A stretch of 64,000 bases of DNA from Rhodospirillaceae bacterium (GTDB lineage Bacteria > Pseudomonadota > Alphaproteobacteria > GCA-2731375): positions 1 to 64,000 of the forward strand of contig JABJKS010000082.1 of NCBI GenBank assembly GCA_018660265.1, written 5' to 3'. This document shows, piece after piece, positions 8,296 to 55,213 of the stretch. The notes beneath the pieces are model-generated. The model ran no database searches. It was not told the DNA's origin and worked only from the letters and a program-made list of their open reading frames with translations. The translations under genes and the position numbers were made by a program. Positions within the stretch are counted from its first letter, which is position 1. Every line of letters begins with the position of its first letter.

Positions 8296-9858
8296 CTAAT
8301 ACTCGCTATCAGGTAGCTCCGCCTTACGTTTTGCAACGAAGGACTTCAAGGCGTCATCAATGGCAGGGTCGATTGCCGGGGCTTCATAGGCGGCCAGACG
8401 CTCTTTCCACAGACGATTTGCCCGCGCCATGGCGTCGGAGGAACCGTCCGCGGACCATTGTTCAAATGAATTATTATCGGCGACGCTGGAGCGGTAGAAG
8501 GCGGTCTCGAAGTTTCGTTGTGTATGGGCCGAGCCGAGGAAGTGTTTGCCCGGACCGATTTCACGAATCGCATCCATGGCCTGGGCTTCTTCCGACAAAT
8601 CCACGCCCCTTGCCAATACCGCCATCATGCCGCATTGATCCTCGTCCATGACGAATTTCTCGTAGCTGGAGACCAAGCCCCCTTCCAACCAACCGGCACC
8701 GTGAAGGATGAAATTGACCCCGCCCATAACAGCCGGCCAAAGCGTGTGGGCGCTTTCATAGGCAGCCTGGGCATCGGCAATTTTTGATGCTGTCAAAGAT
8801 CCCCCCGATCTGAAGGGCAGGCCCAATCGGCGGACCATTTGCGCTGCTGCCAGCATAATCTGGATCGGCTCCGGCATCCCGAATGTTGGCGCGCCGGTTT
8901 GCATGGATAAAGCTGCTGCGAACAGGCCGAAAACAACCGGCGCACCGGGACGGATCAATTGCGTCAGGGCGGCACCCGCCATCCCCTCTGCCATAGCCTG
9001 GGCCAGGGTGCCCGCGACCGAAACCGGTGCCATGGCACCTGACATGATGAAGGGCGTTACAATGACCGCCTGGTTGGCGGCAACGTAGTTTTTCAAGGCG
9101 CCGAGCATGGTCGCGTCAAAGGTCATGGGTGAATTTACGTTGATCAGGGACATGATCACCGTGTTGTCGTTCAAAAAGCCATCGCCGAACAAAATTTCGG
9201 CCATGGCAATTGTGTCCGCCGCCCTGTCAGGATGGGTGACAGAGCCCATGAAAGCCTTGTCTGAGAGGCGCATATGGGCGTAGTTCATATCCAGGTGTCG
9301 TTTGGGTACAGGCACATCCACGGGTTCGCAAACCGTACCGCCTGAATGGTGCAGATGGGGTGAGAGGTAGGCCAGCTTTACGAAGTTTTCAAAATCCTGA
9401 ATGGTGGCATAGCGTCGCCCCCCCTCCATATCGTGGACGAATGGCGGGCCATAGACCGGCCCGATGACCATATTGTTGCCGCCAATCTGCACGCTGCGTT
9501 CCGGGTTTCGCGCATGTTGGGTAAATTCAGCCGGTGCCGTCGCGATCAGCTTTCGCGCCAATCCTCTGGGCAGGCGGACCCGGTTGCCTGATACATCCGC
9601 ACCGGCGTCCCGCCAAAGGGCCAAAACCTCGTCATCGCCGGTGAAATCAATACCGATTTCGGCCAATATGGTTTCCGCATTGGCTTCAATAATTTCGATG
9701 CCTTCAGGGGAAAGAACATCCGCCGTGGGCACACCGCGCACAATATAGGGGGCAGTCGCTGTGGGGGCTGCGGCCCGCGCTGCACGCTTTTCTGCCCGGC
9801 CACCGCCCTGACGGCCCCCCGTGCGGCCATTACGGCCTCTTCTTCCTTCATTCGCCAT
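8296..9858 (-). CDS. MttB-family (non-pyrrolysine) quaternary-amine:corrinoid methyltransferase
   Basis: This 520-residue trimethylamine methyltransferase (MttB) family protein transfers a methyl group from a quaternary or tertiary amine to a corrinoid protein. The reading frame contains no internal UAG, so it is of the non-pyrrolysine class that includes the glycine betaine methyltransferase MtgB. Family features include GPVYGPPFV near 133, HHSGGTVCEP near 164 and a C-terminal half rich in small residues forming the barrel. The first 30 residues are an added Arg/Gly-rich tail (8 Arg, 8 Gly), followed by Ala-rich sequence. It lies just downstream of the GbdR-like regulator on the same strand and divergent from the corrinoid protein operon. 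Betaine, carnitine and proline betaine are possible substrates. Confidence 0.88.
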   Translation of the reverse strand: MANEGRRGRNGRTGGRQGGGRAEKRAARAAAPTATAPYIVRGVPTADVLSPEGIEIIEANAETILAEIGIDFTGDDEVLALWRDAGADVSGNRVRLPRGLARKLIATAPAEFTQHARNPERSVQIGGNNMVIGPVYGPPFVHDMEGGRRYATIQDFENFVKLAYLSPHLHHSGGTVCEPVDVPVPKRHLDMNYAHMRLSDKAFMGSVTHPDRAADTIAMAEILFGDGFLNDNTVIMSLINVNSPMTFDATMLGALKNYVAANQAVIVTPFIMSGAMAPVSVAGTLAQAMAEGMAGAALTQLIRPGAPVVFGLFAAALSMQTGAPTFGMPEPIQIMLAAAQMVRRLGLPFRSGGSLTASKIADAQAAYESAHTLWPAVMGGVNFILHGAGWLEGGLVSSYEKFVMDEDQCGMMAVLARGVDLSEEAQAMDAIREIGPGKHFLGSAHTQRNFETAFYRSSVADNNSFEQWSADGSSDAMARANRLWKERLAAYEAPAIDPAIDDALKSFVAKRKAELPDSEY

Positions 9859-9937
9859 GATGCCAAATCCCCAATGACTGCGTTGACGTTGCCAATTCTA
9901 GACACTGCCGCATGGCTAACTAGATCAATTCCGACTC

Positions 9938-10930
9938 CTACTTGTGTATAAGCGCCGTCTCAGGTTCCGGCTGACGTCGTTCGGCGCGCGGGGTATGACC
10001 AAAATATCCGCGATAGCTTTTTGTGAAATGCGAGGCAGAGATGAAGCCGCAGGCCAGTGCCACCGCCGTTATGGACAGGCTGGTTTGTACCAATAGCTGC
10101 CGCGCCCGGTTCAGTCGTAATTCGAGATAATATCGGGTTGGTGTCTTGTCAAAATATCGTTGGAACAGCCGCTCCAGATGCCGGGTCGAAAGACCAACCG
10201 ATGTGGCGAGTCCAGCATAACTCAAGGGCTCTTCCAAATTTTCTTCCATTTGGGCGATGACGGCCAAAAGCTTTGGGTGACCGCTGCCCAAACGAAAGCG
10301 TAACGGGCGGCGCTGTTGATCATGCTTGTTGCGGATCCTCTCGTGCAATAGTTGATCGGCAACTTCGGCAGCCAGATCATCGCCGTAATCCAGGGAGATG
10401 AGATTGAGCATCATATCCAAGGCCGCCGTTCCGCCGGAGCAGGTGAGCCGGTTCCGGTCCATTTCAAACAGTTCCGAGGTAAATTCAACATCCGGATAGC
10501 GTTCGATCAACCCCGCCAGGTTTTCCCAATGGGCCGTGCAGCGATAACCCTTTAACAATCCCGCCCGGGCCAGGACAGAGCTGCCCGTACAAATTGAACC
10601 CAGTGTACTGCCGCCCGCGTCAAGGCGGCGCAGCCAGGCAAATACGGTTCGGTTATTATAGTCGTGGCTGCCAAGGCCGCCGCAGACAAAGATCAACGGA
10701 TGCGTTTTGACGGCGGATACCGCCTGATCGGTGGGCAGGGCGATCCCGTTGGAAGCAGCGACGGGGTTCCCGTCTGTGGAAATCAAATTCCAATCATAAA
10801 GCCGCTTGCCGGTGACGTGATGGGCAAGACGCAGAGGTTCAATCGCTGCCGTCAGCGCGATCATTGTAAAGTTCGGCACCAGAAAAAAGCCTATCTGGCG
10901 GGCCTTAATGTTTTCAGAAATTTGAACCAT
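9938..10930 (-). CDS. GlxA-family AraC-type transcriptional regulator (GbdR-like)
   Basis: This 330-residue regulator has an N-terminal DJ-1/PfpI-like ligand domain (about 10-180, with the cysteine-containing loop GSICTGSSVLA) and a C-terminal AraC double helix-turn-helix (about 225-320, with LATSVGLSTRHLERLF and ALACGFISASHF). The GlxA subfamily includes GbdR, CdhR and SouR, which sense glycine betaine/dimethylglycine, carnitine and sarcosine. ATG 10930 is preferred; a TTG at 10969 would add 13 residues. It stands between the MttB gene and the divergent corrinoid operon, well placed to control both from the 189-base gap 10931-11119. The ligand is inferred from family and context only. Confidence 0.85.
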   Translation of the reverse strand: MVQISENIKARQIGFFLVPNFTMIALTAAIEPLRLAHHVTGKRLYDWNLISTDGNPVAASNGIALPTDQAVSAVKTHPLIFVCGGLGSHDYNNRTVFAWLRRLDAGGSTLGSICTGSSVLARAGLLKGYRCTAHWENLAGLIERYPDVEFTSELFEMDRNRLTCSGGTAALDMMLNLISLDYGDDLAAEVADQLLHERIRNKHDQQRRPLRFRLGSGHPKLLAVIAQMEENLEEPLSYAGLATSVGLSTRHLERLFQRYFDKTPTRYYLELRLNRARQLLVQTSLSITAVALACGFISASHFTKSYRGYFGHTPRAERRQPEPETALIHK

Positions 10931-11119
10931 GCCGACCGCTCTTGCAAATTTGACACAGAATTTAGCCAATTATAGCGCAAAAGCGACGTCGCAGTGAGGC
11001 AAATAAATGTCGCCGGAGCACTAGCGACAGACGGCAAAAGAAACCCAATATGTGCTGTTTCCGGTGCCCAAGGGCGGAAGTTCACTGGGTGGGTAATTAC
11101 TGGGCTGGGAGTAGACGCC

Positions 11120-11854
11120 ATGGCCAACGAAGAAGACCAGGATAACGAGCTGGACCTTTCGTCCCTGAATGACGAAGATCTCGTCGCCCAAATGCATGAT
11201 GACCTTTACGACGGTCTGAAAAGCGAGATCGCGGAAGGTGTCGAAATTCTGCTGTCCCGCAGCTGGCAACCCTATGACGTTCTGACCAAGGCATTGGTTG
11301 AGGGGATGCGTATCGTGGGGATTGATTTCCGCGACGGTATCCTTTTCGTGCCGGAGGTATTGATGTCCGCCAACGCCATGAAAGCGGGCATGGCCATATT
11401 GCGCCCACTTCTGGCGGAATCGGATGCGCCGCAAATGGGCAAAATGGTCATCGGCACGGTCAAGGGCGATATCCATGATGTGGGCAAAAACCTTGTCGCC
11501 ATGATGATGGAAGGTGCCGGCTTTGAAGTCATAGATATCGGCATCAACAACTCGGTTGAAGACTACATGGCCGCGTTGGAGGAATATAAACCCGAAATTC
11601 TGGGCATGTCCGCTTTGTTGACCACGACGATGCCCTATATGAAGGTGGTTATTGAAGCCTTGGAAGCCAAGGGCGTGCGCGATGACTATGTGGTGCTGGT
11701 GGGTGGTGCACCCCTGAACCAGGCCTTTGCAGACAGCGTTGGGGCGGATGCTTATTGCGTTGATGCGGCTGTGACCGTGGATATCGCCAAGGATCTTATG
11801 GCCCGGCGTCAGGGCTCTGGTGCGGAACGCATGGCCCGGGCGGCTGAAGGCTGA
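11120..11854 (+). CDS. Corrinoid (B12-binding) methyl-carrier protein
   Basis: This 244-residue MtbC/MttC-type corrinoid protein has a helical cap domain (about 20-100) and a Rossmann B12-binding domain. The cobalt-ligand motif DxHxxG is at Asp117-His119-Gly122, followed by GMSALLTTTM and VGGAPL, the usual cobalamin tail-binding loops. It carries the methyl group between the MttB-type enzyme and the pterin methyltransferase. The first 21 residues are strikingly acidic (9 Asp/Glu). ATG 11120 is chosen for GGGAG at 11107-11111; the frame is open further upstream, but that part does not look like the family. It heads a tight operon through doeA and the nitronate monooxygenase gene. Confidence 0.92.
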   Translation: MANEEDQDNELDLSSLNDEDLVAQMHDDLYDGLKSEIAEGVEILLSRSWQPYDVLTKALVEGMRIVGIDFRDGILFVPEVLMSANAMKAGMAILRPLLAESDAPQMGKMVIGTVKGDIHDVGKNLVAMMMEGAGFEVIDIGINNSVEDYMAALEEYKPEILGMSALLTTTMPYMKVVIEALEAKGVRDDYVVLVGGAPLNQAFADSVGADAYCVDAAVTVDIAKDLMARRQGSGAERMARAAEG

Positions 11855-11857
11855 GCC

Positions 11858-12499
11858 GTGAGGGATGTCGCTGCAAAGCGGCCGGATATGCGACCGGAAA
11901 AGCGACCGGGCCTGTTGATTGCCTGTGGCGCTTTGGCGCGGGAAATTATCGCGGTGTTGGATGCAGGTGGCCTGGATGGCCTGGATGTGAACTGCCTGCC
12001 GGCTCATTTGCACATTAGGCCCCAAGCCATTGCCGAGGCCGTGCGTGGCAAAGTACGGGCGGGCAAACTCAGTCACGAGAAGGTCTTTGTGCTATACGCT
12101 GATTGCGGCACTGGCGGGGATCTTGATGCCGTCTGTGCCGAGGAAGGCGTCACCCGTATACCAGGCGCCCATTGCTATGAATTCTTCGCAGGCGCTGAAA
12201 CCTTCGCCGCTATATCCGAGGCGGAACCGGCGGCCTTTTATCTGACCGATTTCCTGGTCCGGCATTTTGACCGCCTGGTCTATGCGGGTCTTGGCCTGGA
12301 CCGATATCCGGAGCTGTTGGACGACTATTTCGGCAACTACCGCCGGGTGGTCTATCTGGCCCAGACCAAGGACCCGGCGTTGGAGGAACAGGCGAAGGCG
12401 GCCGCCGAACGTCTTGGCCTGGCCTACGAATATCGTTTTACGGGCTATGGCGAACTCGCCGCATTTACCTCCCGCGCCAATCACAGAGTACAGACATGA
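11858..12499 (+). CDS. DUF1638 domain protein of the corrinoid methyltransferase operon
   Basis: This 213-residue DUF1638 protein has unknown biochemical function; the family is repeatedly found beside corrinoid methyltransferase genes. Conserved-looking stretches are LLIACGALAREI, LYADCGTGGDLD (near 80) and GAHCYEFFAG (near 105), with several cysteines and histidines that could bind metal. The GTG start at 11858 lies three bases after the corrinoid gene stop and has GAAGG upstream; an ATG at 11888 is an alternative. Its end overlaps the next start as ATGA. Its fixed place between carrier and pterin methyltransferase suggests a role in corrinoid maturation, loading or protection (inference). 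Confidence 0.8.
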   Translation: MRDVAAKRPDMRPEKRPGLLIACGALAREIIAVLDAGGLDGLDVNCLPAHLHIRPQAIAEAVRGKVRAGKLSHEKVFVLYADCGTGGDLDAVCAEEGVTRIPGAHCYEFFAGAETFAAISEAEPAAFYLTDFLVRHFDRLVYAGLGLDRYPELLDDYFGNYRRVVYLAQTKDPALEEQAKAAAERLGLAYEYRFTGYGELAAFTSRANHRVQT

Positions 12500-13434
12500 C
12501 AGAAACCATCCTTCGTTCGGCAAACCGTGAGGTCATCATCGGTTTCGACAGACCCTTTGTCATTATCGGCGAACGGATCAATCCTACGGGGCGCAAATTG
12601 CTGTCGGAGGAAATGGCCGCGGGCGATTTCAGCCGGGTGGAGGCCGATACCCTGGCCCAGGTACAGGCAGGCGCGCAAATGCTGGATGTCAACGCCGGCA
12701 TTCCAATGGCTGACGAACCGGCAATTCTGGCCGCCACCATCCGCCTTGTGCAATCGATTACGGATGTGCCCTTGTCCATCGACAGTTCCATCGTCGCGGC
12801 GTTGGAGGCGGGCCTGGATGCCTATGAGGGCCGGGCCCTGGTCAACTCCGTTACGGGTGAGGAAGAAGTGCTGGCAGCGGTATTGCCCCTGGTGAAAAAG
12901 CATGACGCCGCCGTCGTCGCCATCGCCAATGACGAAACGGGAATATCGGAAGATCCTGATGTTCGCTTTGCCGTGGCAAAAAAGATCGTCGAACGGGCCG
13001 CTGATTTCGGCATCGCCTCAAAAGATGTCGTCGTCGATCCATTGTTGATGCCCGCGGGTGCCATCGAAGGGGCCGGTCGGCAGGCCATGCGCATAATCCG
13101 CCGCTTGCGGGAAGAGTTAAAGGTCAACACCACGGGCGGTGCTTCCAATATCAGTTTTGGTCTGCCCAATCGGCATGGCCTGAATGGTGCGTTCTTGTCC
13201 ATGGCCATTGGTGCCGGGATGACCTCCGCCATCCTTAATCCCCTGCATAGCGAGGAAATGGCCGCCATTAAGGGCGCCGATGTGATGATGGGTGTGGACC
13301 CTCATTGCCAGGCCTGGATGGCCCGCTATCGTGATCCCACGGTCCAGAGAGAGGGTCGTCGTGGTGGCCGCAGAGAACGAGGTGGACGAGGCGACCGGGG
13401 CAGCCGGGGACAGTCGGGCGCGATCGGTGAATAG
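12496..13434 (+). CDS. Methyltetrahydrofolate:corrinoid methyltransferase (MeTr/MtrH-like)
   Basis: This 312-residue pterin-binding TIM barrel of the dihydropteroate-synthase/MetH-pterin superfamily would move the methyl group between methylcobalamin on the carrier and tetrahydrofolate. Characteristic motifs are GERINPTG (25-32), DVNAG (64-68), SIDSS (near 95), NSVTGEE, VVDPL and GASNISFGLP (near 215). The last 27 residues (286-312) are an Arg/Gly-rich tail (8 Arg, 10 Gly) absent from typical family members of about 260-290 residues. The start overlaps the DUF1638 stop. In this context it probably runs in the methyl-THF-forming direction and feeds MetF. Confidence 0.9.
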   Translation: MTETILRSANREVIIGFDRPFVIIGERINPTGRKLLSEEMAAGDFSRVEADTLAQVQAGAQMLDVNAGIPMADEPAILAATIRLVQSITDVPLSIDSSIVAALEAGLDAYEGRALVNSVTGEEEVLAAVLPLVKKHDAAVVAIANDETGISEDPDVRFAVAKKIVERAADFGIASKDVVVDPLLMPAGAIEGAGRQAMRIIRRLREELKVNTTGGASNISFGLPNRHGLNGAFLSMAIGAGMTSAILNPLHSEEMAAIKGADVMMGVDPHCQAWMARYRDPTVQREGRRGGRRERGGRGDRGSRGQSGAIGE

Positions 13435-13436
13435 CG

Positions 13437-15341
13437 GTGCCAGAGCCGTCCTGCAGGATTGTTTTTACCCCCTCCGGCCGGCAAGGGACTGTTGCCTACA
13501 ACACCACGATTTTGGCTGCGGCCCGTGAACTCGGTGCCGATCTAGGCTCCATCTGCGGCGGCCGGGCCAGATGCGGGCGCTGCCGGGTGCATGTGGAGAC
13601 CGGCGCGTTTGCCAAACACGGAATTTCATCCGCTGCTGATCATCTAAGTGAAACAGAGGTGGATGAGCGAGGCTATGCCGCCCGGCGCAAGATGCCAACG
13701 GGCGACCGCCTTGGCTGCCAGGCACGCATTGTTGGCGATCTGGTCATCGACGTCCCCATCGAAAGCCAACAGCATAAGCAGATCATTCGCAAACGGGCCG
13801 AAGTTCGGGCCATTGAAATCGATCCGGTTCTAACCCTGCATGATGTAGATTTGGATGATAGCGGCGTTTTAAATGCTTTGGCCGCGCAATGGGGCATGCA
13901 AGACCTCACCCTTGATACCGCCGCACCAAGCGTTATAGGGCCGGCGACGGCGGTGGTACGTGATGCTCAGGTGGTCATTGATGTCCGGCCCGGCATAGTT
14001 GAACGAGCCTATGGCCTTGCCGTCGATATTGGTTCCACAACCCTGGCCGCGCATCTGGTTGATCTTGGCAATGGCGATGTGCTGGCGACGGCATCTGCCA
14101 TGAACCCGCAAATCCGATTTGGCGAAGATGTCATGAGCCGCGTGTCCTATGCCATGACCAACGACGGCGGGGCCGACGCCATGATGGATGCAGTCCGCGT
14201 TTCGTTGGACCAGTTAGCGGGCGATGCCGTACGTCAGGCCGATGTCCGGCGCGGGGACGTTTACGAAGTCGTCATCGTCGGCAATCCGATCATGCATCAT
14301 ATCTTCCTGGGCCTTGACCCGGTGCCGTTGGGTTTGTCGCCGTTCCGGCTTCAGGCCGAAGGTGCGGTTGAGCGCGCGGCGGCAGAACTTGGATTGTCCC
14401 TGGCCCCGAATGCACGGGTTTATTTGCCACCCTGCATCGAAGGTCATGTGGGCGCGGATGCAGCCGCGATGGTGCTGTCAGAAGGTCCGCACCTGGGCGA
14501 CGAAACCGTATTGTTGATTGACGTCGGTACCAATGCGGAAATTGTTTTGGGCAATCGCCACCGCTTGCTGGCGGCCTCCTCGCCCACCGGGCCGGCACTG
14601 GAAGGCGCGCAGATCAGTAGCGGCCAACGCGCAGCACCGGGCGCTATTGAACGGGTTCGGATCGATCCGGAAACCGGTGTTGCAAGGTTCCGTGTGATCG
14701 GCTGTGATTTCTGGTCTGACGAAGCCGGCTTTGATGCCACGCCAACCGGAATTTGCGGTTCCGGGATTATCGAGGCTGTGGCGGAAATGGCCGCCGCCGG
14801 CATTATTAAGCCCGATGGTGGTTTCCCGGCAGCCGGCACGGATTTTCAAATCCACCCTGGCGAACCTGCCATCGTGATTACGCAACAAGACGTCCGCGCG
14901 GTGCAATTGGCCAAGGGCGCATTGCATGCGGGTGCGAGGTTGCTGCTGGATCGCTTCGGTGTAGCGGCGGTGGACCGCGTGGTGCTGGCCGGTGCCTTTG
15001 GTAGCCAGATTGCCCCGGTACACGCCATGGCATTGGGCTTGATTCCAGACGGTGATCCGGACAAAGTATCGTCTGCGGGTAATGCGGCAGGAACCGGCGC
15101 GCGCATTGCCCTGTTGAACAAGGCGGCCCGGCGGGAGATTGAGGTCGTTGTGCAAGGTATAGAACGGGTCGAAACCGCGACGGAGCCGGATTTCCAAACC
15201 TATTTCGTCGATGCCATGGCAATCCCCCATGCCACGGATCCTTACACGAATTTGCGCGCCATCATGGCAATGCCCCTGCATCAGGTGGCCGAAGGACGGC
15301 GGCGCGCAAGCCGCCGGGGCCGTGCTGGAAGGAATTCTTGA
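13437..15341 (+). CDS. Corrinoid-protein reductive activase (RamA/RACE-type, 2Fe-2S plus ASKHA domain)
   Basis: This 634-residue ATP-dependent activator returns inactive Co(II) corrinoid protein to Co(I). An N-terminal plant-type [2Fe-2S] ferredoxin domain has Cys40, Cys46, Cys49 and Cys94. A middle linker and a DUF4445 ASKHA ATPase domain follow, with GLAVDIGSTTLAAHLVDL near 195, LIDVGTNAEIVLG near 360 and GICGSGIIEAVAEM near 440. The start is GTG 13437, two bases after the methyltransferase stop. The final 16 residues (619-634) are again Arg-rich (7 Arg). In aerobes such an activase would be needed often because Co(I) oxidises easily. Confidence 0.9.
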   Translation: MPEPSCRIVFTPSGRQGTVAYNTTILAAARELGADLGSICGGRARCGRCRVHVETGAFAKHGISSAADHLSETEVDERGYAARRKMPTGDRLGCQARIVGDLVIDVPIESQQHKQIIRKRAEVRAIEIDPVLTLHDVDLDDSGVLNALAAQWGMQDLTLDTAAPSVIGPATAVVRDAQVVIDVRPGIVERAYGLAVDIGSTTLAAHLVDLGNGDVLATASAMNPQIRFGEDVMSRVSYAMTNDGGADAMMDAVRVSLDQLAGDAVRQADVRRGDVYEVVIVGNPIMHHIFLGLDPVPLGLSPFRLQAEGAVERAAAELGLSLAPNARVYLPPCIEGHVGADAAAMVLSEGPHLGDETVLLIDVGTNAEIVLGNRHRLLAASSPTGPALEGAQISSGQRAAPGAIERVRIDPETGVARFRVIGCDFWSDEAGFDATPTGICGSGIIEAVAEMAAAGIIKPDGGFPAAGTDFQIHPGEPAIVITQQDVRAVQLAKGALHAGARLLLDRFGVAAVDRVVLAGAFGSQIAPVHAMALGLIPDGDPDKVSSAGNAAGTGARIALLNKAARREIEVVVQGIERVETATEPDFQTYFVDAMAIPHATDPYTNLRAIMAMPLHQVAEGRRRASRRGRAGRNS

Positions 15342-47063: not shown

Positions 47064-47095
47064 AACCTAGCGCCCTCCCTCCGAGGATCAGTTGT

Positions 47096-47290
47096 CGTCC
47101 TGCCGCGCGCGTCTCCTGGCTTTGGATCATCGGTTGCGGGGCCTTCCCGGCTGCAGGGACCAATTCCAAAGGGAAATGCTCCGGGCAGCTAGTGGCAATT
47201 ACCCGTTTCCTCACCATTCACAGTTGCGGGGGCAGCGCCGGATTTAAAACATAACCGGCTTCCGCGCCACGGCAGAGGGAACCTAACATG
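47096..47290 (-). promoter_or_regulatory. Cobalamin riboswitch
   Basis: On the minus strand, GCTGCCCCCGCAACTGTG (inside 47219-47245), the upstream GGAAGCCGG element and the B12 box AGCCAGGAGAC (47121-47111) occur in the right order and spacing for the cobalamin aptamer. CTGCCG near 47272 can pair with CGGCAG near 47103 to close the core. It lies 33 bases upstream of cobU, so adenosylcobalamin should repress cobU-cobW-cobN-cobO-cobQ. The Shine-Dalgarno of cobU (GGAGGGAGGG, 47082-47073) falls in the expression platform, which points to translational control. Confidence 0.93.
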
Positions 47291-47375: not shown

Positions 47376-48086
47376 ATGTTCACCATCCTCGGCCTGGGTT
47401 TCCTCCTCGGCCTGCAACACGCCATGGAAGCTGATCATGTCGCAACCGTCGTCGCTATGACGGCGGGGCGCACACGGCTGTCCAGGGTGGTCCGTCATGG
47501 CTTGTTTTGGGGCCTGGGCCATGCTTTGGCATTGTCGGCTTTTGCCGGTGTGATCGTGTTGGCGCGGGGGAATGTTCCGCCTGCTTTGAATGTACTGCTG
47601 GAATGTATTGTCGCTGTGATGTTGATTGGGCTGGGCGTGATGGTGATCTGGCGCGTTCTGAAGGAACGTCTGCATTTCCACTCGCACAGCCATGTGGACG
47701 GCAGATTGCATTTTCATGCCCACAGCCACGCAGGCGAAGCGCGGGCTCACGATAAAAACCGCCATGATCACGATCATGAAGGGGCGAGTATGCGACGCAG
47801 CCTATTGGTCGGGGTCATGCATGGCCTGGCAGGGTCCGCCGCGTTGATCGCACTCGCCGCACCTGGTGAATGGGTCCAGGGCCTGGGCTTTATCTTTCTG
47901 TTCGGGGTCGGCTCTATCGCCGGTATGGTGCTGTTATCCTCGGTGATCGCCCTGCCGTTGATGCTGTCGGGTAAAGTCATGACCGGCCTGAACCGAAGCC
48001 TGCAACTTGGTATTGGCGCGGCCTCCATCGCGATTGGCGGTTATTATGCCGCAAACCAGATACCTGCGCTTATGGCCCTGATCTAA
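47376..48086 (+). CDS. Nickel/cobalt transporter, NicO/HoxN-like
   Basis: This 236-residue membrane protein has about six helices. The first-helix signature LGLQHAMEADHVATV is shared by nickel/cobalt transporters and related HupE/UreH-type proteins. A His-rich cytoplasmic or periplasmic loop (HFHSHSH, HFHAHSH, HDHDH; about 108-145) would gather metal, and VGVMHGLAGSAALIAL follows it. ATG 47376 matches the family start. It diverges from the riboswitch-led operon and is probably a cobalt carrier; import versus efflux is not decided by sequence. It ends four bases into the convergent isochorismatase gene. Confidence 0.8.
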   Translation: MFTILGLGFLLGLQHAMEADHVATVVAMTAGRTRLSRVVRHGLFWGLGHALALSAFAGVIVLARGNVPPALNVLLECIVAVMLIGLGVMVIWRVLKERLHFHSHSHVDGRLHFHAHSHAGEARAHDKNRHDHDHEGASMRRSLLVGVMHGLAGSAALIALAAPGEWVQGLGFIFLFGVGSIAGMVLLSSVIALPLMLSGKVMTGLNRSLQLGIGAASIAIGGYYAANQIPALMALI

Positions 48087-48763
48087 ACCTTCAATTCGGC
48101 CATAGCCTCGTCGGCGGAAATTACCCGCCCAAAGAGGCGTTGGAAATTTGTAATTGCCGCTTCGTGCAGGTCTTCATGGGTGGTGGCGCAGGCATCTTCG
48201 ATCAATGTCACGCCATAACCCCGGTCCGCTGCCTCCCGCGCCGTGGTATCGACACACATGTTGGTGGAGACACCACACATATACAGCTGATCCTTCCCCA
48301 TGGAGCGGAGTAGATGATCGATGCCGGTGGAGGCAAAAGCCCCGATGGATGTTTTGTTAACCACGGCCTCACCGGGTTCTGGCTTAAGCGCGTCAATTAT
48401 TTCGTGTTCCCGGCTGCCCTCAAAATTATCGAGGGCCTGAAACATTCCCGTCATATGCGGCGGCGCGTCACTGCAATCGGCCTTGGCTGAACCTATGGTC
48501 AAATAGACGACTGATCCGCCGCCCTTTCGAAAGCCTGTTAGCAGACGGGTGATGTTCGGCACCACCTTGCTTTCAATCCGATCAAAGCGGTAGCCGCCGA
48601 CGTTGGAACCCTCTGCCGACAACCGTCGCCCCAGGGCACCGTCCCGATGGCCCGTCGCATATTGCATATCAACAACAATAAGAACGGCACGGCCAAATTC
48701 CGGCTCCCGCTCTGCCATAAAGGCCTGGATATAGTCGTTGTCTTTGTTCTTTGGCGTGATCAT
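48083..48763 (-). CDS. Isochorismatase-family cysteine hydrolase
   Basis: This 226-residue isochorismatase-fold amidohydrolase has a complete catalytic triad: Asp32 (VVDMQ), Lys137 (NKTSIGAF) and Cys170 (STNMCVDTTAR). It also has the cis-peptide loop before the cysteine. The family hydrolyses amides such as carbamoylsarcosine, nicotinamide or ureidoacrylate. It is the last gene of the leftward AtuA operon, 12 bases after that gene, and a second family member sits in the divergent operon (52847), which suggests two related amide cleavages in one pathway. Confidence 0.85.
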   Translation of the reverse strand: MITPKNKDNDYIQAFMAEREPEFGRAVLIVVDMQYATGHRDGALGRRLSAEGSNVGGYRFDRIESKVVPNITRLLTGFRKGGGSVVYLTIGSAKADCSDAPPHMTGMFQALDNFEGSREHEIIDALKPEPGEAVVNKTSIGAFASTGIDHLLRSMGKDQLYMCGVSTNMCVDTTAREAADRGYGVTLIEDACATTHEDLHEAAITNFQRLFGRVISADEAMAELKV

Positions 48764-48775
48764 GGGCAGGCTCCC

Positions 48776-50185
48776 TTAAAGTTCTTCCATGCGTATGGGA
48801 AATAACGTGGCCAAATCCGTAACATTCTCCAGTGTCATGATGTGATAGACGCTGAAGCGATAGGCTGTGCCGGCATTCATCTCCGGCGGGGTCAGGGGAA
48901 AGGCCAGATTACCCCCTGTCGACAAGCGACCCGGAAAGCCGTGGTGGAGAAGATGCTGGCGCACCACGGCAATGACCGCCCTGGCCTCGTCCGCCGTGGC
49001 CGCAATGCATTCCCCCAGCAGGAAGATCTCTCTGGGCAGCACCTCCGGCGGGGTGGGCCAGTCAACCACGCCGTTCAAACCGTAATGGCGGAAATACAAG
49101 CTATAGGGATGCTCCGGGTCCGGCGGGGCGATATCCCGCGCGGTTTCCTTCACGGCGGCAATAATATCTTCGACGTTCTCGATAAAGCGGGCATCAGCCG
49201 CACCTGCCATCATGATCGCCCGTTCGCCAACCCAGGTGGCACCTTCGATCTTGACGCTGGCGCGGGCGGCGGACTCCCACCTGGCGCCGTGGACACGAAC
49301 CCGGCGTTCATCCACCGCCTCGTACTGGGCACTGCCCACATGCAGGACGCCGTCAGGTTCAGACACCGTATAGGGATCGGCCTGTTCATAGAGGCTGTGG
49401 GCGGCGACCGACGTTGGCGTGGCACGCCGTGCGGGGTTCATACTTTCGAGAACAAAGCCAGTTTCGTCCAACGTCCCCAGCATGGCGTCCCGCCCGCCGG
49501 GGATGCAGCAAATGGAGGAGCATTCAATGATCTTGGCCATATGGGTGGCTTCGCCCACGGGATAACCAAGCAATATGGGCACGGCGGAGAACACGGCTGT
49601 GTCACAGGCCCGCCCGGCCAGGATAACATCGGCACCCAGGGCGAGGGCCCGGTGAAAGGCCTCAACCCCCATTTGCCCGACGATATTCGCGGCCCCGTTG
49701 ACTGTCTCGTCATCCAGCGCGGCGATGGCACCGATGGCCTGGGTGCGCCCGCCATTCACAGCCTCAACCACCACATCGCGGGGCATATCCGCCTCGATCA
49801 GGGCAAGGTTGAAATGCAGATCTTCATCGGCGGCGACCTGGCGCAAAATTTCGGCCACTGTGTTTAGTTGAGAGTTCGTACCAGCCGTGCCGGCACTGCC
49901 AATCAGCAAGGGCACATCCAGTTTCCGCGCGGCTGTGAGGACCAGCCGTAAATCCCGCGCCGTCATAGATGGCGATGTGGCTATCTGCCCGGACCCCAGG
50001 TAAGCCGGGCCCGGATCGATGGAACCCATATCGGCACCAATAACATGCGGCTCCCGCGCGATGCCGGCCTTAAGCGCGGCCCCCGGGATGCCATAGCCAA
50101 GTTGGCCCGAAGCCGCCAGCACGCGCAGGGGTGGTCGCGCCGATTGCCCGTCAATTTCAGCCTTTAATCTGTCAAAAGCACTCAT
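48776..50185 (-). CDS. AtuA-family (DUF1446) protein
   Basis: This 469-residue protein belongs to the DUF1446/acyclic terpene utilisation AtuA family. VLAASGQLGYGIPGAALKAG, ADMGSIDPGPAYLGSG, LLIGSAGTAGTNSQL (near 95) and ILAGRACDTAVFSA (near 190) are typical glycine-rich blocks; C-terminally it lacks the extra DUF domain of the longest members. AtuA is needed for citronellol/geraniol breakdown in Pseudomonas, but its chemistry is unproven. Its start overlaps the end of the DUF4387 gene; that pair is a common combination. Confidence 0.85.
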   Translation of the reverse strand: MSAFDRLKAEIDGQSARPPLRVLAASGQLGYGIPGAALKAGIAREPHVIGADMGSIDPGPAYLGSGQIATSPSMTARDLRLVLTAARKLDVPLLIGSAGTAGTNSQLNTVAEILRQVAADEDLHFNLALIEADMPRDVVVEAVNGGRTQAIGAIAALDDETVNGAANIVGQMGVEAFHRALALGADVILAGRACDTAVFSAVPILLGYPVGEATHMAKIIECSSICCIPGGRDAMLGTLDETGFVLESMNPARRATPTSVAAHSLYEQADPYTVSEPDGVLHVGSAQYEAVDERRVRVHGARWESAARASVKIEGATWVGERAIMMAGAADARFIENVEDIIAAVKETARDIAPPDPEHPYSLYFRHYGLNGVVDWPTPPEVLPREIFLLGECIAATADEARAVIAVVRQHLLHHGFPGRLSTGGNLAFPLTPPEMNAGTAYRFSVYHIMTLENVTDLATLFPIRMEEL

Positions 50186-50484
50186 AGGACCAGATCCAAT
50201 AGGGGGCCGTGTTGTTGTGCGCCATAGACATCCCGGTCACCGGGCGTGCCGGCCACCATGGCCCGGTCCATGACAACCTTTAGGGCGTTGGCGGCAGGAT
50301 AGGGGATGATCCGCACCTGGTTTTGCGATAGACCGTAACGGGCGGCAATCGCGCTTTCCGTCAGATTGTCTGAATTGCAGGCGTGCTCAAACGCCTCTGG
50401 CTCATCGAACAGAATATCAATGGTCATTTGCGTAGGCCCTGCGTTCTTGCTGCGAATGACCCGTGCGCTATCGATCAGTTTCAT
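50182..50484 (-). CDS. DUF4387 protein
   Basis: This 100-residue DUF4387 protein is a small cytoplasmic protein usually encoded next to AtuA-family genes. RSKNAGPTQMTIDILFD at the N-terminus and PYPAANALKVVMDR near the C-terminus are the recognisable parts. It overlaps AtuA by four bases, so it is probably a subunit or partner. No enzyme activity is known. Confidence 0.8.
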   Translation of the reverse strand: MKLIDSARVIRSKNAGPTQMTIDILFDEPEAFEHACNSDNLTESAIAARYGLSQNQVRIIPYPAANALKVVMDRAMVAGTPGDRDVYGAQQHGPLLDLVL

Positions 50485-50508
50485 ACCTTCCCCCAGAAAA
50501 ACGAATTC

Positions 50509-51249
50509 CTATTTTATGACATAGCCGCCATCGGCGCAGATCACCTGGCCAGTGATGAAGGACGCCGCATCCGACAACAAAAACAGGTTTAGATTGGCGA
50601 TCTCGTCCGCTTCGCCGAAACGCCCCATGGGAATATTGTTCAAAAGATAGTCCCGGCGTTCCGGTATCGTGCGGGTTTCCGCCGTCATATCTGTGGCGAT
50701 GGGCCCGGGACCCACGGCGTTGATGCGTACGTTGTCGGCGCCCAACTCCAACGCCATTGTCCGGGCCAGGCCATTGATACCTGCCTTCGAGGCGGCATAG
50801 GCGGCAGCGCGGGGATGACCGACCAAACCGATCTGGCTGGAAATCATCACGATTGAGCCTTTGCCCATATCCTTCATGTGCCGGGCTGCGGCGCGGGCGA
50901 GATTAAAGCTGCCGGTCAGGTTGGTGCCGATTACATCATCCCAAACCGCATCCGTCGTTTCTATCGATGTCGACAACGAAATAATCCCGGCGCAGGCCAA
51001 GGCCCCGTCCAGGCCGCCTAAACTTTCGATTGTGGCCGCAATCGCGCCATCCAAGGCGTTGCCCTCTGTCACATCGAGATCATGGATATGCTCAGGTGCC
51101 ATAAAGGCGCTTAACGCTGCCCGCTGTTCGTCGCCCCGTATTGTTCCAGCCAGCTTTGCCCCCATTTCAGATGCCCGGCGTACCGTGGCCAGGCCGATGC
51201 CCGAACCGGCACCGGTGACGAACAGGCGATATCCTTCAAGGTTGATCAC
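50509..51249 (-). CDS. Short-chain dehydrogenase/reductase
   Basis: This 246-residue classical SDR has NAD(P) motif TGAGSGIG (12-19), active-site Ser in MISSQIGL (near 137), YAASK (Tyr about 150, Lys about 154) and VRINAVGPGPIATDM near 180. A usual alcohol/ketone oxidoreductase, substrate unknown. The GTG start at 51249 overlaps the NTF2-like gene by 14 bases, so the two are one transcription unit. It has an intact catalytic set, unlike the SDR at 54455. Confidence 0.88.
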   Translation of the reverse strand: MINLEGYRLFVTGAGSGIGLATVRRASEMGAKLAGTIRGDEQRAALSAFMAPEHIHDLDVTEGNALDGAIAATIESLGGLDGALACAGIISLSTSIETTDAVWDDVIGTNLTGSFNLARAAARHMKDMGKGSIVMISSQIGLVGHPRAAAYAASKAGINGLARTMALELGADNVRINAVGPGPIATDMTAETRTIPERRDYLLNNIPMGRFGEADEIANLNLFLLSDAASFITGQVICADGGYVIK

Positions 51250-51646
51250 TGCTTACTCCTTTGGGCCGAACCTCCGCCATATCATTCCATACTTTGTGGT
51301 CCATTAACTTGCCATCCAACACCGTGAAACGATCAATAAAACGGATGCCCTCAAATGGTGTGCCGTTGCCCCAGGCCCCCGACAATGTACCACGGCAATA
51401 GACTGTAGTCTGGTTGGGAGCATCGACGGCCGGGCATTCATCGACACCCTCATAGGTTTTTCGTACGCTTTGATAGCGCCCCGTCGACCAGGCGATAAGC
51501 GCCTCCAACTCATGAAAGACCGGGCTGTTTGGGAAGATCATGTTGAAACCACCGCCCAGGTAGGACTTCGCCTTCACCAGATCCCGCGCCTCCATGGCAT
51601 CAAGGAAGTCCCGGGCCAATTGGGCGGGCGTTATGTCATGGCTCAT
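51236..51646 (-). CDS. NTF2-like (SnoaL-type) protein
   Basis: This 136-residue cone-shaped NTF2/SnoaL-fold protein opens with helices FLDAMEARDLVKAKSYLGGG, then FNMIFPN, and ends with sheet segments FIDRFTVLDGKLMDHKVWND. Such proteins are isomerases, hydratases or substrate-binding partners in catabolic operons. It is the first gene of the leftward operon, with the start at ATG 51646. Its substrate is not predictable. Confidence 0.72.
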   Translation of the reverse strand: MSHDITPAQLARDFLDAMEARDLVKAKSYLGGGFNMIFPNSPVFHELEALIAWSTGRYQSVRKTYEGVDECPAVDAPNQTTVYCRGTLSGAWGNGTPFEGIRFIDRFTVLDGKLMDHKVWNDMAEVRPKGVSSDQP

Positions 51647-51698
51647 GGATATTCTGCCTCGGCTTGTGGCTGCTGGAAAAAATGCTGGCCTAAAACTT

Positions 51699-51712
51699 AT
51701 TGATATATCAAT
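51699..51712. promoter_or_regulatory. 14-bp perfect palindrome, possible operator
   Basis: ATTGATATATCAAT is fully palindromic and lies 53-66 bases upstream of the NTF2-like start, in the 302-base gap between divergent operons. Its form resembles operators of GntR-family or similar dimeric repressors, but no regulator gene is adjacent. Confidence 0.4.
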
Positions 51713-51839
51713 CTATCATTCACCGGCTGGGAGAAACAATGGCCCTTAAGGATGGTGAAGGGTTGAGGTTTTGCGGGCGGACCAAACCTGAACGACATTT
51801 CTTGCCGACGCCATTGTCGTGCCCTTGTTGGCGGTGAAA

Positions 51840-51891
51840 TTTGTCACCGTGGTTTATCACCGTGCGTTATCACTGGGCTTTATCGCCTTGA
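51840..51891. repeat. Four tandem 13-bp units upstream of the CoA-lyase operon
   Basis: Units TTTGTCACCGTGG, TTTATCACCGTGC, GTTATCACTGGGC and TTTATCGCCTTGA follow one another without spacers, ending 57 bases before the start of the rightward operon. Units 1-3 share TCAC; unit 4 is more degenerate. An AT-rich stretch (ATATTTATAAATACC) follows directly and may hold the promoter. The rest of the 51647-51948 gap shows no gene. Confidence 0.6.
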
Positions 51892-51948
51892 TATTTATAA
51901 ATACCGTATGAATTTGTCACTTCTTCAATCTACCCAGAAAGAGACCAC

Positions 51949-52854
51949 ATGGTCGCCGAGCCACTAAATTTCCGTCTCCATCGCAGCAAGCTTTTTGTGC
52001 CAGGCAATCGGCCGGAGCTGTTTCAAAAGGCTCTGATATCAGGTGCTGATACGATCTCCATCGATCTGGAAGATGCAGTTCCGGCGGGCGAGACGGCGAC
52101 GGCACGGCGGATCGTGGCGGAATTTCTTGATGACCTTAAACCAGGCTCCATGCCCCCCGGCGTAGAAATCGGCGTGCGTTTAAACGGCCGTGACAGCGGC
52201 AACATGGTCGAAGATATTCTGGCCACGGTGCGCCCCGGTCTGCATTGGGTCAATGTGCCCAAGGTTGAGGACCCGGTGGATATCCTGCTTTGCGCGGACC
52301 TGCTGGATCATATGGAACGGCAATACGATTTCGCCCAACAGATAGCCATCCTGGCAACCATCGAAACGCCCAGGGGCGTGCGCCGGGTGGCGGAGATTGC
52401 CGCTGCGCATCCTCGTTTGACCGGGCTGCAATTCGGTGTTGGGGATTACGGCATTGCCATGGGGATCACGCCCAGCCCCACCCGCCTGATGCCGGCCTGG
52501 ATGGCCGTGGTCGGCGCGGCGCGGGAGGCGGGTATTGCTGCCTATGACAGTGCTTTCATTGATATCGAAGATATGGCGGGGTTCGAGGCTTGGTGCCGGG
52601 AGGCCAAGGCCTGTGGCTTCGCCGGCAAAAGCTGTATCCATCCTAAACAGGTGGCACAGTGCAATGCCTCCTTCAGCCCGTCGGTTGAGGAGCTTGAGGA
52701 AGCCCGCGCGATTGTTGCGGCATACGATGATGCCGTTGCCAAAGGACTGGGCGCGTTGACCTTTCGCGGCAAATTGGTCGATTACCCGTTTGCGGAGGAC
52801 GCCCGTCGAATGGTGACGCAATTTTCCACGGGAGAGATCGTTCGTCATGGCTGA
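51949..52854 (+). CDS. HpcH/HpaI-type CoA-ester lyase (CitE/Mcl-like)
   Basis: This 301-residue TIM-barrel lyase of the citrate-lyase beta/malyl-CoA lyase family has the N-terminal LFVPGNRPELFQKAL, acidic metal motif SIDLEDAVP (near 37-45), Arg in GVRLNGRDSG, metal Glu in ATIETPRGV (near 141) and KSCIHPKQV near 225. It would split or form a 3-hydroxyacyl-CoA. It heads the rightward operon of region 3. Partner specificity is unknown. Confidence 0.88.
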   Translation: MVAEPLNFRLHRSKLFVPGNRPELFQKALISGADTISIDLEDAVPAGETATARRIVAEFLDDLKPGSMPPGVEIGVRLNGRDSGNMVEDILATVRPGLHWVNVPKVEDPVDILLCADLLDHMERQYDFAQQIAILATIETPRGVRRVAEIAAAHPRLTGLQFGVGDYGIAMGITPSPTRLMPAWMAVVGAAREAGIAAYDSAFIDIEDMAGFEAWCREAKACGFAGKSCIHPKQVAQCNASFSPSVEELEEARAIVAAYDDAVAKGLGALTFRGKLVDYPFAEDARRMVTQFSTGEIVRHG

Positions 52855-53542
52855 TTGGGAACAACATCTAAGCGAACATGACCGCGCCGTCCTGGAACGA
52901 GGACGTTTTGCCCGCCGCATGGGTTTCGGTCAACGCGCCGCCGTGATCGTTATCGATTGTCAGAACTACATGGTGGGCAGCCGGGAGTTGGATGACGAAC
53001 GTTACCCCTCCCGCTGCGGCCCGGCAGGGTGGGCGGCGGTGGATCGAATTGCCGACGTAGTGACGGCGGCGCGGGCAGTGAAGGCCCCGGTCTTCTATAC
53101 CCGCTTCGTACTTGACCCTACGGGCAATGACATTGGGGTTTATGGCCTGAAGCGGGATTTGCTGCATACACCGTACTGGTGCCTGGCTGATACTATCGGG
53201 GCGGAGATCATTGACGATATTGCGCCGGGCGTGGATGACATTGTCATGGTGAAGAAAAAGCCATCGGCCTTTCATGGCACGCCCTTGCTGGGGCATTTGA
53301 TCCAGCGGAGCATTGATACATTGGTGATCGTCGGCGGGGCCACGTCGAACTGTGTCCGGGCCACGGTGTTTGATGCCGCATCACACAATTACCGGGCTAT
53401 CGTGCCCAGTGATTGCGTTTTTGATCGTATTGAGATTTCCCATTCAATCAGCCTGTTCGACATGGACCGCCAATTTGCCGACGTCGTCGAAAGCAGTGAT
53501 GTTCTGAATTACTTTGCAGGAGTAGAGAGCAATGGAGCGTGA
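52847..53542 (+). CDS. Isochorismatase-family amidohydrolase (N-carbamoylsarcosine amidase-like)
   Basis: This 231-residue cysteine hydrolase has triad residues Asp37 (VIDCQNYM), Lys138 (VKKKPSAFHGT) and Cys169 (GGATSNCVRATVFDA). The N-terminal extension and the SNCVRATVFDAASHNYR block are like those of N-carbamoylsarcosine amidase and close relatives. It overlaps the lyase gene by eight bases and the deacetylase gene by eleven. With the PuuE-like protein next door it suggests ureido- or amide-type chemistry (inference). Confidence 0.82.
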   Translation: MADWEQHLSEHDRAVLERGRFARRMGFGQRAAVIVIDCQNYMVGSRELDDERYPSRCGPAGWAAVDRIADVVTAARAVKAPVFYTRFVLDPTGNDIGVYGLKRDLLHTPYWCLADTIGAEIIDDIAPGVDDIVMVKKKPSAFHGTPLLGHLIQRSIDTLVIVGGATSNCVRATVFDAASHNYRAIVPSDCVFDRIEISHSISLFDMDRQFADVVESSDVLNYFAGVESNGA

Positions 53543-54452
53543 CTTCATCGGTTATGGTGCCCAACCGCCGAAAATAAATTGGCCCAACAAGGCACGCATC
53601 GTGGTCTCTATCGTGGTCAACTACGAAGAAGGCTCCGAGCTGTCCTTCGCTTTTGGCGATCCCATTCAGGAGGCCTACAAGGAATACCCAAAGGCCATGC
53701 CCGATGGGGTGCGTGACCTGACCAATGAACAGGTTTACGAATATGGTGCCAGGGTCGGCATCTGGCGGGTGATGCGTCTTCTGGACAAGTATGATCTGAA
53801 AACCACTTTTCACGCCTGCGGCATGGCGTTGGAACGTAATCCCGATGTTGCCAGGGCAGCAGTGGACGGTGGCCACGAGATTTGTACCCACGGCTATCGC
53901 TGGGTCGAAACCTCGAACATGACGGAAGATGAGGAGCGCGCCTTTATTAAGAAGTCGGTTGAGGCACAGCGGGAGGTCTGTGGCCAACGCCCGGTGGGTT
54001 GGTATTGCCGCTACGGCCCTGGCCTGCGCACCCGGCGTTTGTTGATGGAGGAGGGCGGCTTTGAATATGACAGCGACAGCGTGGCGGACGAACTTCCCTT
54101 CTATGCCGTCGTTGATGGCGAACCGTTCACCGTGGTGCCTTACACGATAGATGTGAACGATATGAAGTTCTGGGCCAATGCCGCCTTTGGCAATGGCGAA
54201 GATTTTTCGACTTACATGATCGATGCATTTGATCAGCTATATGAAGAAGGTGCGGAAACGCCGAAGATGATGTCCATAGGCCTGCATCCCCGGATCATTG
54301 GCCGACCGGCCCGGGCCCGGGCGCTTGATCGGTTCTTTAAACATATACGCAGCCATGACGATGTCTGGGTCGCGCGGCGGGCAGATATCGCGGCACATTG
54401 GCGCCAAGAACGGCCCTATGAACAACCCTATAGTGGGCCTTCAGGAGAATAA
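53532..54452 (+). CDS. Polysaccharide-deacetylase-fold protein, PuuE/allantoinase-like
   Basis: This 306-residue NodB-fold protein of the PuuE class includes metal-independent allantoinases and cyclic-imide hydrolases as well as deacetylases. VVNYEEGSE, TTFHACGMALERNP (near 96), GHEICTHGYRW (near 116-126) and RYGPGLRTRRLL match that class and not chitin deacetylases. There is no signal peptide, so it acts in the cytoplasm on a small molecule. Its place after a carbamoylsarcosine-amidase-like gene supports hydrolysis of a cyclic ureide or imide (inference). Confidence 0.82.
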   Translation: MERDFIGYGAQPPKINWPNKARIVVSIVVNYEEGSELSFAFGDPIQEAYKEYPKAMPDGVRDLTNEQVYEYGARVGIWRVMRLLDKYDLKTTFHACGMALERNPDVARAAVDGGHEICTHGYRWVETSNMTEDEERAFIKKSVEAQREVCGQRPVGWYCRYGPGLRTRRLLMEEGGFEYDSDSVADELPFYAVVDGEPFTVVPYTIDVNDMKFWANAAFGNGEDFSTYMIDAFDQLYEEGAETPKMMSIGLHPRIIGRPARARALDRFFKHIRSHDDVWVARRADIAAHWRQERPYEQPYSGPSGE

Positions 54453-54454
54453 TT

Positions 54455-55213
54455 ATGGATTTGCAACTCGCCGGTCGCGTGGCCCTGGTTACCGGAGCCA
54501 GTATTGGGCTGGGCGCATCTATCGCAGAGCATTTGGCGGCTGAAGGTTGCCGTATGGCCCTGTTGGCCCGGCGGGAGAATTTGTTGGAAGCGGTCGCCAA
54601 CGCCATCGCCGGTCAGGGTTTTGAACGCCCCATGGTGATCGTCGAAGACGTCACCTCGGACGGAATGGCGGAGCGGGTGGAGGCTTTGGTTACCCGACGT
54701 TACGGCAATCTTGATATCCTGATAAACAATGCCGGTGGCTCGCGCCCCATGCCTGGCCTCGGTACGGAGGCTGAGTGGGACGAGGCCATGGCCCTCAACT
54801 TTACCGCTGCCCGTCGTCTGACCCATGCCTTTGTGCCCGGCATGCAGACGCGGAAATTTGGCCGCATCATCAATATTACGGGTGGTGATGAGCCCGTCTC
54901 CATGAACGCAGGCGTGCCGCCAAACGGCGCTACGCATATTTGGGCGAAATCTTTATCGCGTGTCGTGGGCGGTGACGGTGTGACGGTGAATTGCATTCCC
55001 CCTGGGCGCATTCATTCGGAACAGGTTGACGAACGCCTGATGCCTACGGAGGCAAAGCAGCGCGCCTGGGTCGAGGCCAATTGCCCTGCCGGCTATATTG
55101 GCGAGCCGGAGGATCTAAGCGTTCTGGTCGCCTTCCTGAGTTCTCCCAAGGCCCGTTATATTAACGGCCAGGTGATTTATGTGGACGGTGGTGCGCGGTA
55201 TTATTCCCATTAA
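54455..55213 (+). CDS. SDR-fold protein without the catalytic Tyr and Lys
   Basis: This 252-residue protein has the SDR Rossmann fold: TGASIGLG (about 14-21), INNAGGSRP near 90, VTVNCIPPGRIHSEQ near 180 and INGQVIYVDGGA at the C-terminus. Aligned on KSLSR...VTVN, the YxxxK positions fall on Gly and Asn (GVPPNGATHIWAK), so the classical catalytic pair is missing. It may use another mechanism or be a non-reductive member. AGGAG at 54443-54447 supports ATG 54455. It is the last gene of the rightward operon. Confidence 0.85.
   Translation: MDLQLAGRVALVTGASIGLGASIAEHLAAEGCRMALLARRENLLEAVANAIAGQGFERPMVIVEDVTSDGMAERVEALVTRRYGNLDILINNAGGSRPMPGLGTEAEWDEAMALNFTAARRLTHAFVPGMQTRKFGRIINITGGDEPVSMNAGVPPNGATHIWAKSLSRVVGGDGVTVNCIPPGRIHSEQVDERLMPTEAKQRAWVEANCPAGYIGEPEDLSVLVAFLSSPKARYINGQVIYVDGGARYYSH

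Follow-up and report, generated by a model that had tools for sequence, protein, structure and literature searches.

What compound do nine tightly packed genes for predicted amide hydrolases, dehydrogenases and carbon-carbon (C-C) lyases break down, and do they act as one pathway? The genes lie in a 64,000-nucleotide stretch of DNA from a Rhodospirillaceae bacterium (contig JABJKS010000082.1, assembly GCA_018660265.1), here called the window. A sequence-only reading had described them as two divergent operons under one shared control region that degrade an N-containing ring or conjugated acid stepwise to coenzyme A (CoA) esters. From the gene content, family membership, conserved catalytic residues and purifying selection observed here, together with the recurrence and co-occurrence of the two halves in other genomes, we see about an even chance that the locus comprises two catabolic cassettes of one type, arranged back to back, that act on a cyclic imide or ureide.

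All nine open reading frames were confirmed: the minus strand carries five (48083-51646) and the plus strand four (51949-55213). Within each group the spacing between neighbors ranged from +24 to -14 bases, and a single divergent gap of 302 bases separated the groups, which verified the tight packing into two divergent operons. A second species of the genus (G007) has orthologs of seven of the nine genes, with proteins 82-96% identical, and the ratios of nonsynonymous to synonymous substitution rates (dN/dS) of 0.02-0.06, computed against G007 for five genes, indicate purifying selection; the nine are therefore not chance reading frames. Pfam and NCBIfam upheld two isochorismatases, an AtuA-family protein (PF07287), DUF4387, two short-chain dehydrogenases/reductases (SDRs), a PuuE-like polysaccharide deacetylase and an HpcH/CitE-type CoA-ester lyase; the SnoaL/NTF2 match of the ninth protein was weak. 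The domain labels given earlier thus held, except for the sense of "AtuA" and of "degenerate SDR". The features are listed in Table 1.

Table 1. Genes and control region of the divergent locus, in window coordinates
Feature	Position	Strand	Basis
ISO1, isochorismatase-family amidohydrolase (BiuH/RutB-like), predicted half-amide or N-carbamoyl hydrolase	48083..48763	-	PF00857, triad, orthologs near AtuA/DUF4387
AtuA-family large subunit, CmlA-like, predicted CoA-free lyase of malate/citramalate-type acid	48776..50185	-	PDB 9erq_A match
DUF4387 small subunit, CmlB-like	50182..50484	-	PDB 9erq_B match; AtuA neighbor
SDR1, canonical short-chain dehydrogenase/reductase	50509..51249	-	adh_short_C2 E 1e-60; triad
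NTF2/SnoaL-like protein, homologous to C-terminal half of tautomerase fusion	51236..51646	-	PDB 9mua_A match
Divergent control region, palindrome and 13-base-spaced repeats	51647..51948		self-match, congener comparison
CitE/RipC-like CoA-ester lyase	51949..52854	+	PF03328, CitE model, catalytic residues, L056 ortholog
ISO2, isochorismatase-family hydrolase, N-carbamoylsarcosine-amidase-like	52847..53542	+	PDB 1nba match, triad residues
PuuE-like hydrolase, predicted cyclic imide/ureide ring opening	53532..54452	+	TIGR03212 match, loop motif
SDR2, conserved non-canonical SDR	54455..55213	+	G143/H161 substitutions kept in orthologs

In the scheme that we favor, the reactions, their order and the substrate are predictions. 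The PuuE-like enzyme of the right cassette would open a cyclic imide (or hydantoin-like ureide), and ISO2 would hydrolyze the resulting half-amide to a malate-type hydroxy-dicarboxylic acid. The CoA ester would then be made by a family III CoA transferase encoded outside the two operons and be split by the CitE/RipC-like lyase into an acyl-CoA and a 2-oxo acid. In the left cassette, SDR1 and the tautomerase-associated NTF2-like protein would process a related ring or acid, ISO1 would take off the amide, and the AtuA-DUF4387 pair, resembling CmlA/CmlB, would split the free malate-type acid into a 2-oxo acid and a carboxylic acid in a CoA-free reaction. Both cassettes and their relatives would follow a common logic: a PuuE-like protein or an amidase opens the ring or amide, an isochorismatase removes the amide, and a lyase, of one of three unrelated types, then cleaves a C-C bond of a malate-type acid. 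The earlier proposal is partly supported: as general chemistry, the opening of an N-containing ring or amide followed by cleavage to small acids or CoA esters is borne out by the families, the catalytic residues and the recurring neighborhoods.

The AtuA-DUF4387 pair and the associated enzymes

The window AtuA protein matched PF07287 at superfamily level only (52-58 bits; 58.5 bits over residues 94-390), whereas three other AtuA proteins in the same genome scored 355-473 bits and none of their genes has DUF4387 beside it. The label therefore holds for the superfamily and fails for the terpene-type AtuA. In a search of solved structures, each protein of the pair gave one strong match, and both fell on one entry (9erq/9evf), each on a different chain: the AtuA-like protein aligned over residues 20-452 with citramalate lyase subunit A (9erq_A, 39% identity, E 4.8e-100) and the DUF4387 protein with subunit B (9erq_B, E 1.3e-22). 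An alignment of eleven AtuA homologs of the clade contained 126 invariant columns within the part aligned to 9erq_A. The latter keeps 89 of these residues, 34 of them polar, against an overall identity of 39%. DUF4387 adjoined the AtuA-like gene in all 32 homologous loci examined. The pair shares with CmlA/CmlB the two subunits from adjacent genes, DUF4387 as the small subunit and near-full-length homology of the large one, and differs in its setting among amide hydrolases and an SDR. From these comparisons the pair is probably a CmlAB-type lyase, probably with a related substrate. E. coli O157:H7 offers a context that fits the assignment: its methylaspartate ammonia-lyase gene has a DUF1446 (AtuA-family) gene downstream, the cluster also contains a mesaconase, and the fate of citramalate there was unresolved in 2015 (PMC4682846). 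A search of the paper library on DUF4387 found no paper.

The lyase of the right half matched PF03328 (E 4.5e-44) and the CitE model (E 7e-58). The Arg, Glu, Asp and lid Asp expected of CitE-type enzymes are present as R77, E139, D166 and D278. The RipC/CitE system of itaconate/citramalate degradation includes a family III CoA transferase, with which relatives of the window lyase are also paired. However, the window lyase scored far below the equivalog cut-offs for both CitE (195.9 versus 443.4) and RipC (166.7 versus 375).

Both isochorismatases share family and Asp-Lys-Cys triad with N-carbamoylsarcosine amidohydrolase, biuret hydrolase and RutB. ISO1 (PF00857, E 2e-37) has an intact triad (D32/K137/C170), and its nearest solved relative is biuret hydrolase. 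The triad residues of ISO2 are present as D37, K136/K137 and C169, and its closest solved structure is N-carbamoylsarcosine amidohydrolase (1nba, E 4.6e-26). In contrast to RutB and BiuH, the window isochorismatases scored under both equivalog cut-offs (ISO1, 75 and 86 bits versus 378 and 370).

The PuuE-like protein belongs to the family of the solved PuuE allantoinases (PDB 3cl6 and 1z7a) and aligns with them along its full length (E 6e-99), but with 362.6 bits it did not reach the allantoinase cut-off of TIGR03212 (424.6). Its substrate loop also differs. The region reads WYCRYGPGLRTR, with the motif WYCRYGP where 3cl6/1z7a have WYTGRTGP, and so departs from the WYTGRxxPNTR pattern of allantoinases; WYCRYGP-type motifs are common to isochorismatase-linked PuuE homologs. 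Score and motif together make a genuine allantoinase unlikely. Thirteen stretches of the genome matched the PuuE allantoinase model, none at the cut-off and the window gene highest, and the family is greatly expanded in this genome. A search of the paper library combining cyclic imide hydrolase with isochorismatase found no paper.

SDR1 is canonical (adh_short_C2, E 1e-60), with S137/Y151/K155 intact. In SDR2, G143 and H161 replace the catalytic Ser and Tyr and only K165 of the Ser-Tyr-Lys set is kept. The same substitutions occur in eight non-identical orthologs of 64-92% identity from Bosea, Limobrevibacterium and several metagenome-assembled genomes (MAGs). Because Gly and His are fixed in every ortholog found, SDR2 is, as judged from these alignments, a distinct conserved SDR subfamily and no relic; the description as degenerate, in the sense of decay, was rejected. 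The NTF2-like protein matched residues 67-186 of PDB 9mua_A (E 1.1e-33), that is, the C-terminal 120 residues of a tautomerase fusion (9mua, 9mup), but does not have its N-terminal 66 residues, the presumed tautomerase domain. No publication was found for structure 9mua.

Each side of the control region has its own element. On the left-operon side a palindrome, TTGATATATCAA, lies at 51700-51711 and is near-identical in the congener G007, where it reads TTGATATACCAA. On the right-operon side, four repeats (TTATCACCGTG-like) at 13-base intervals precede the lyase operon, at about 51828-51890, and their lag-13 self-match exceeded that of all 500 mononucleotide shuffles; they are candidate binding sites of a regulator. 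The single divergent gap bears out the idea of one shared control region in its layout, but the presence of a different element on each side suggests that the two operons may be controlled separately.

Recurrence of the two halves in other genomes

The AtuA-DUF4387 pair recurs with ISO1 (59-67% identity) in three further loci (L159, L164 and, in Verticiella, L161). The companions vary by locus and comprise SDR1-like genes, distant PuuE-like genes, MmgE/PrpD, members of the Asp/Glu/hydantoin racemase family, and ABC or TctC transport genes; SDR1 relatives at 45-51% are found in AtuA loci L159, L162, L163 and L164. When the 32 AtuA-DUF4387 loci were compared with 16 control regions of the same or related genomes, isochorismatases and phosphoenolpyruvate-mutase/isocitrate-lyase (PEP-mutase/ICL)-type C-C lyases were each present in 9 of the loci and PuuE-like proteins in 4, all against 0 of 16 controls. 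SDRs were not enriched (10/32 versus 4/16). The bacterium's own genome holds a second AtuA-DUF4387 pair, 39% identical to that of the window, on contig C78 (locus L043, about 8300-14900). The same locus encodes an isochorismatase, a PEP-mutase/ICL protein resembling methylisocitrate lyase and two distantly related PuuE-like proteins, and an IS200-like transposase lies between its AtuA and PuuE-like genes.

For the right half, a search with ISO2 of 84,980 genomes gave 73 loci with flanks. Their recurrent neighbors are a CoA-ester lyase, a family III CoA transferase (identified by Pfam in one locus), a PuuE-like protein or amidase, and TctC-type binding proteins. SDR2 occurred at 64-70% identity in seven ISO2 loci, and PuuE was present in all seven. 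On a plasmid of Variovorax sp. SRS16 the annotated core consists of a CoA transferase, an amidase, an isochorismatase (63%) and a CoA ester lyase (45%), and in a genome of the same genus as the window (L056) a lyase (70%), a CoA transferase and ISO2 (73%) are consecutive. In a phylum-wide sample no ISO2 ortholog at E<=1e-50 was found besides that of the window itself.

The halves also occur together: within 12.5 kb in Verticiella sediminum (L074) and about 10 kb apart in Zwartia hollandica (L158). In two genomes of Candidimonas and an alphaproteobacterial MAG (L066, L067 and L127), ISO2 is flanked by AtuA-DUF4387 pairs of more distant relationship. Five AtuA homologs were seen in the 73 ISO2 loci, where 0.24 would be expected by chance (about one AtuA homolog per 5 Mb, uncorrected for kinship). 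An AtuA ortholog (E<1e-110) was present in 16 of 41 ISO2-positive genomes; the corresponding figure for the class was 10 of 385. Of 200 genomes sampled from the family, nine had one, and six of these nine are ISO2-positive.

In G007, one contig carries the left half and another the PuuE-SDR2 end of the right half, and the outer flank of each matches the window. The right half was first suspected to be absent, as the lyase was missing and a GntR gene stood next to the left operon; this was rejected when PuuE and SDR2 (95% and 92%) were found on a short contig syntenic with the right flank of the window. Lyase and ISO2 are absent from the G007 assembly and probably fall in its gap. The GntR gene adjoins the left operon in divergent orientation, so the regulator apparently lies between the halves in G007; no counterpart was found in the window's genome at E<=1e-12. 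Directly downstream of the G007 SDR2, on the opposite strand, lies a sensor histidine kinase gene (locus L184 on contig C195, 1496-3016) that the window does not have at this place. The halves therefore co-occur in other genomes, contrary to the outcome that would have counted against the earlier proposal. Often, however, they are separate: many genomes have one half only, and in Bosea, for example, the right half is present but a search for AtuA at E<=1e-60 gave no homolog. Two cassettes describe this better than one set.

Two features lie outside the nine genes. A cobalamin riboswitch on the minus strand (window 47087-47289) heads a large B12 biosynthesis cluster that adjoins them. A marginal Rfam match to PYLIS_3 (38.1 versus a gathering threshold of 38) lies at 8694-8796 within an MttB-like gene; because this gene reads 520 codons without a stop, the match is probably false and the gene a non-pyrrolysine MttB homolog.

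Alternative pathways and the favored scheme

One linear nine-gene pathway for a single substrate, with the CmlAB-like and CitE-like lyases at successive C-C cleavages, would suit the tight divergent packing, the synteny of both halves in G007 and their closeness in Verticiella and Zwartia. We nevertheless consider it unlikely, as each half stands alone in many genomes, the sides of the control region bear different repeat elements, and the presence of isochorismatases, SDRs and lyases in twos suggests duplicated function rather than sequence. Hydantoin or pyrimidine catabolism appears improbable. There the PuuE-like protein would serve as hydantoinase, the isochorismatases would hydrolyze N-carbamoyl compounds, and the lyases would act on an amino-acid-derived hydroxy acid. 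The structural relative of ISO2, the BiuH/RutB-like character of ISO1, and the D-hydantoinase and Asp/Glu/hydantoin racemases of relative L164 all speak for it, as do luciferase-like monooxygenases, the superfamily that includes RutA, in some relatives. However, neither operon contains a hydantoinase, racemase or monooxygenase, and among the relatives a hydantoinase was found in one and racemases in two. A parallel from fungi favors cyclic imides or hydroxylactams over hydantoins. In fungal nicotinate breakdown the cyclic imide 3-hydroxypiperidine-2,6-dione is formed by a dehydrogenase and opened by an imidase related to PuuE, after which an amidase acts (PMC9304392). This HxnW-HxnM-HxnN route resembles the scheme in its dehydrogenase-derived cyclic imide, its imidase, its ammonia-releasing amidase and the hydroxy-dicarboxylic acid that is left; it is fungal and has no C-C lyases, and we take it as a functional parallel only, with no claim of homology for the whole set.

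Purine ureide breakdown, with the PuuE-like gene as the genome's allantoinase and the cluster handling allantoin, is very unlikely. The gene does have the top TIGR03212 score of the genome (362 bits) and full-length similarity to allantoinases, but that score lies under the curated cut-off, the loop motif is that of isochorismatase-linked homologs, no urate or allantoate genes were recognized nearby, and C-C lyases would have no role in the pathway. We give almost no credence to acyclic terpene (citronellol/geraniol) catabolism, which the AtuA name and its 58.5-bit PF07287 match would imply: the genome has three far better AtuA proteins that stand apart from DUF4387, no geranyl-CoA carboxylase genes were recognized in the two operons by Pfam or NCBIfam, and both the 9erq_A match and the constant DUF4387 partner led us to reject this role.

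Several points weigh against the two-cassette scheme itself. Twenty-one clade-invariant polar positions of the CmlA-like protein differ from 9erq_A, so citramalate itself may not be its substrate, and the activity of 9erq, for which no publication was found, rests on the depositors' name. Many of the 32 AtuA-DUF4387 loci have no isochorismatase or PuuE nearby, and the co-occurrence counts are not corrected for phylogeny. Neither window operon contains a CoA transferase, in which they differ from the RipC/CitE system and from relatives where it is usual for the right half; presumably it is encoded at another place in the genome. The hydantoinase and racemases of L164 fit a hydantoin as well as an imide.

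As stated earlier, the set matches no described pathway: the enzyme families are known, and what is new is their assembly, the AtuA-DUF4387 assignment and the conserved SDR variant. Rather more tentatively than the two-cassette scheme, we propose that bacteria degrade a natural cyclic imide or hydroxylactam by a modular, so far undescribed route. One imidase-amidase front end would be completed by interchangeable C-C lyases of the CoA-free CmlAB, the CoA-dependent CitE or the PEP-mutase/ICL type, and the route would include a new His-for-Tyr SDR subfamily. AtuA-like and DUF4387 genes have so far been annotated as unknown or as terpene genes, and the link to a citramalate-lyase-type activity and an imidase-amidase cassette would give this common gene pair a testable function. 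The conserved His-for-Tyr SDR offers another well-defined target for functional work. Together, the cassettes point to an uncharacterized environmental substrate that may be used by soil and aquatic Proteobacteria.

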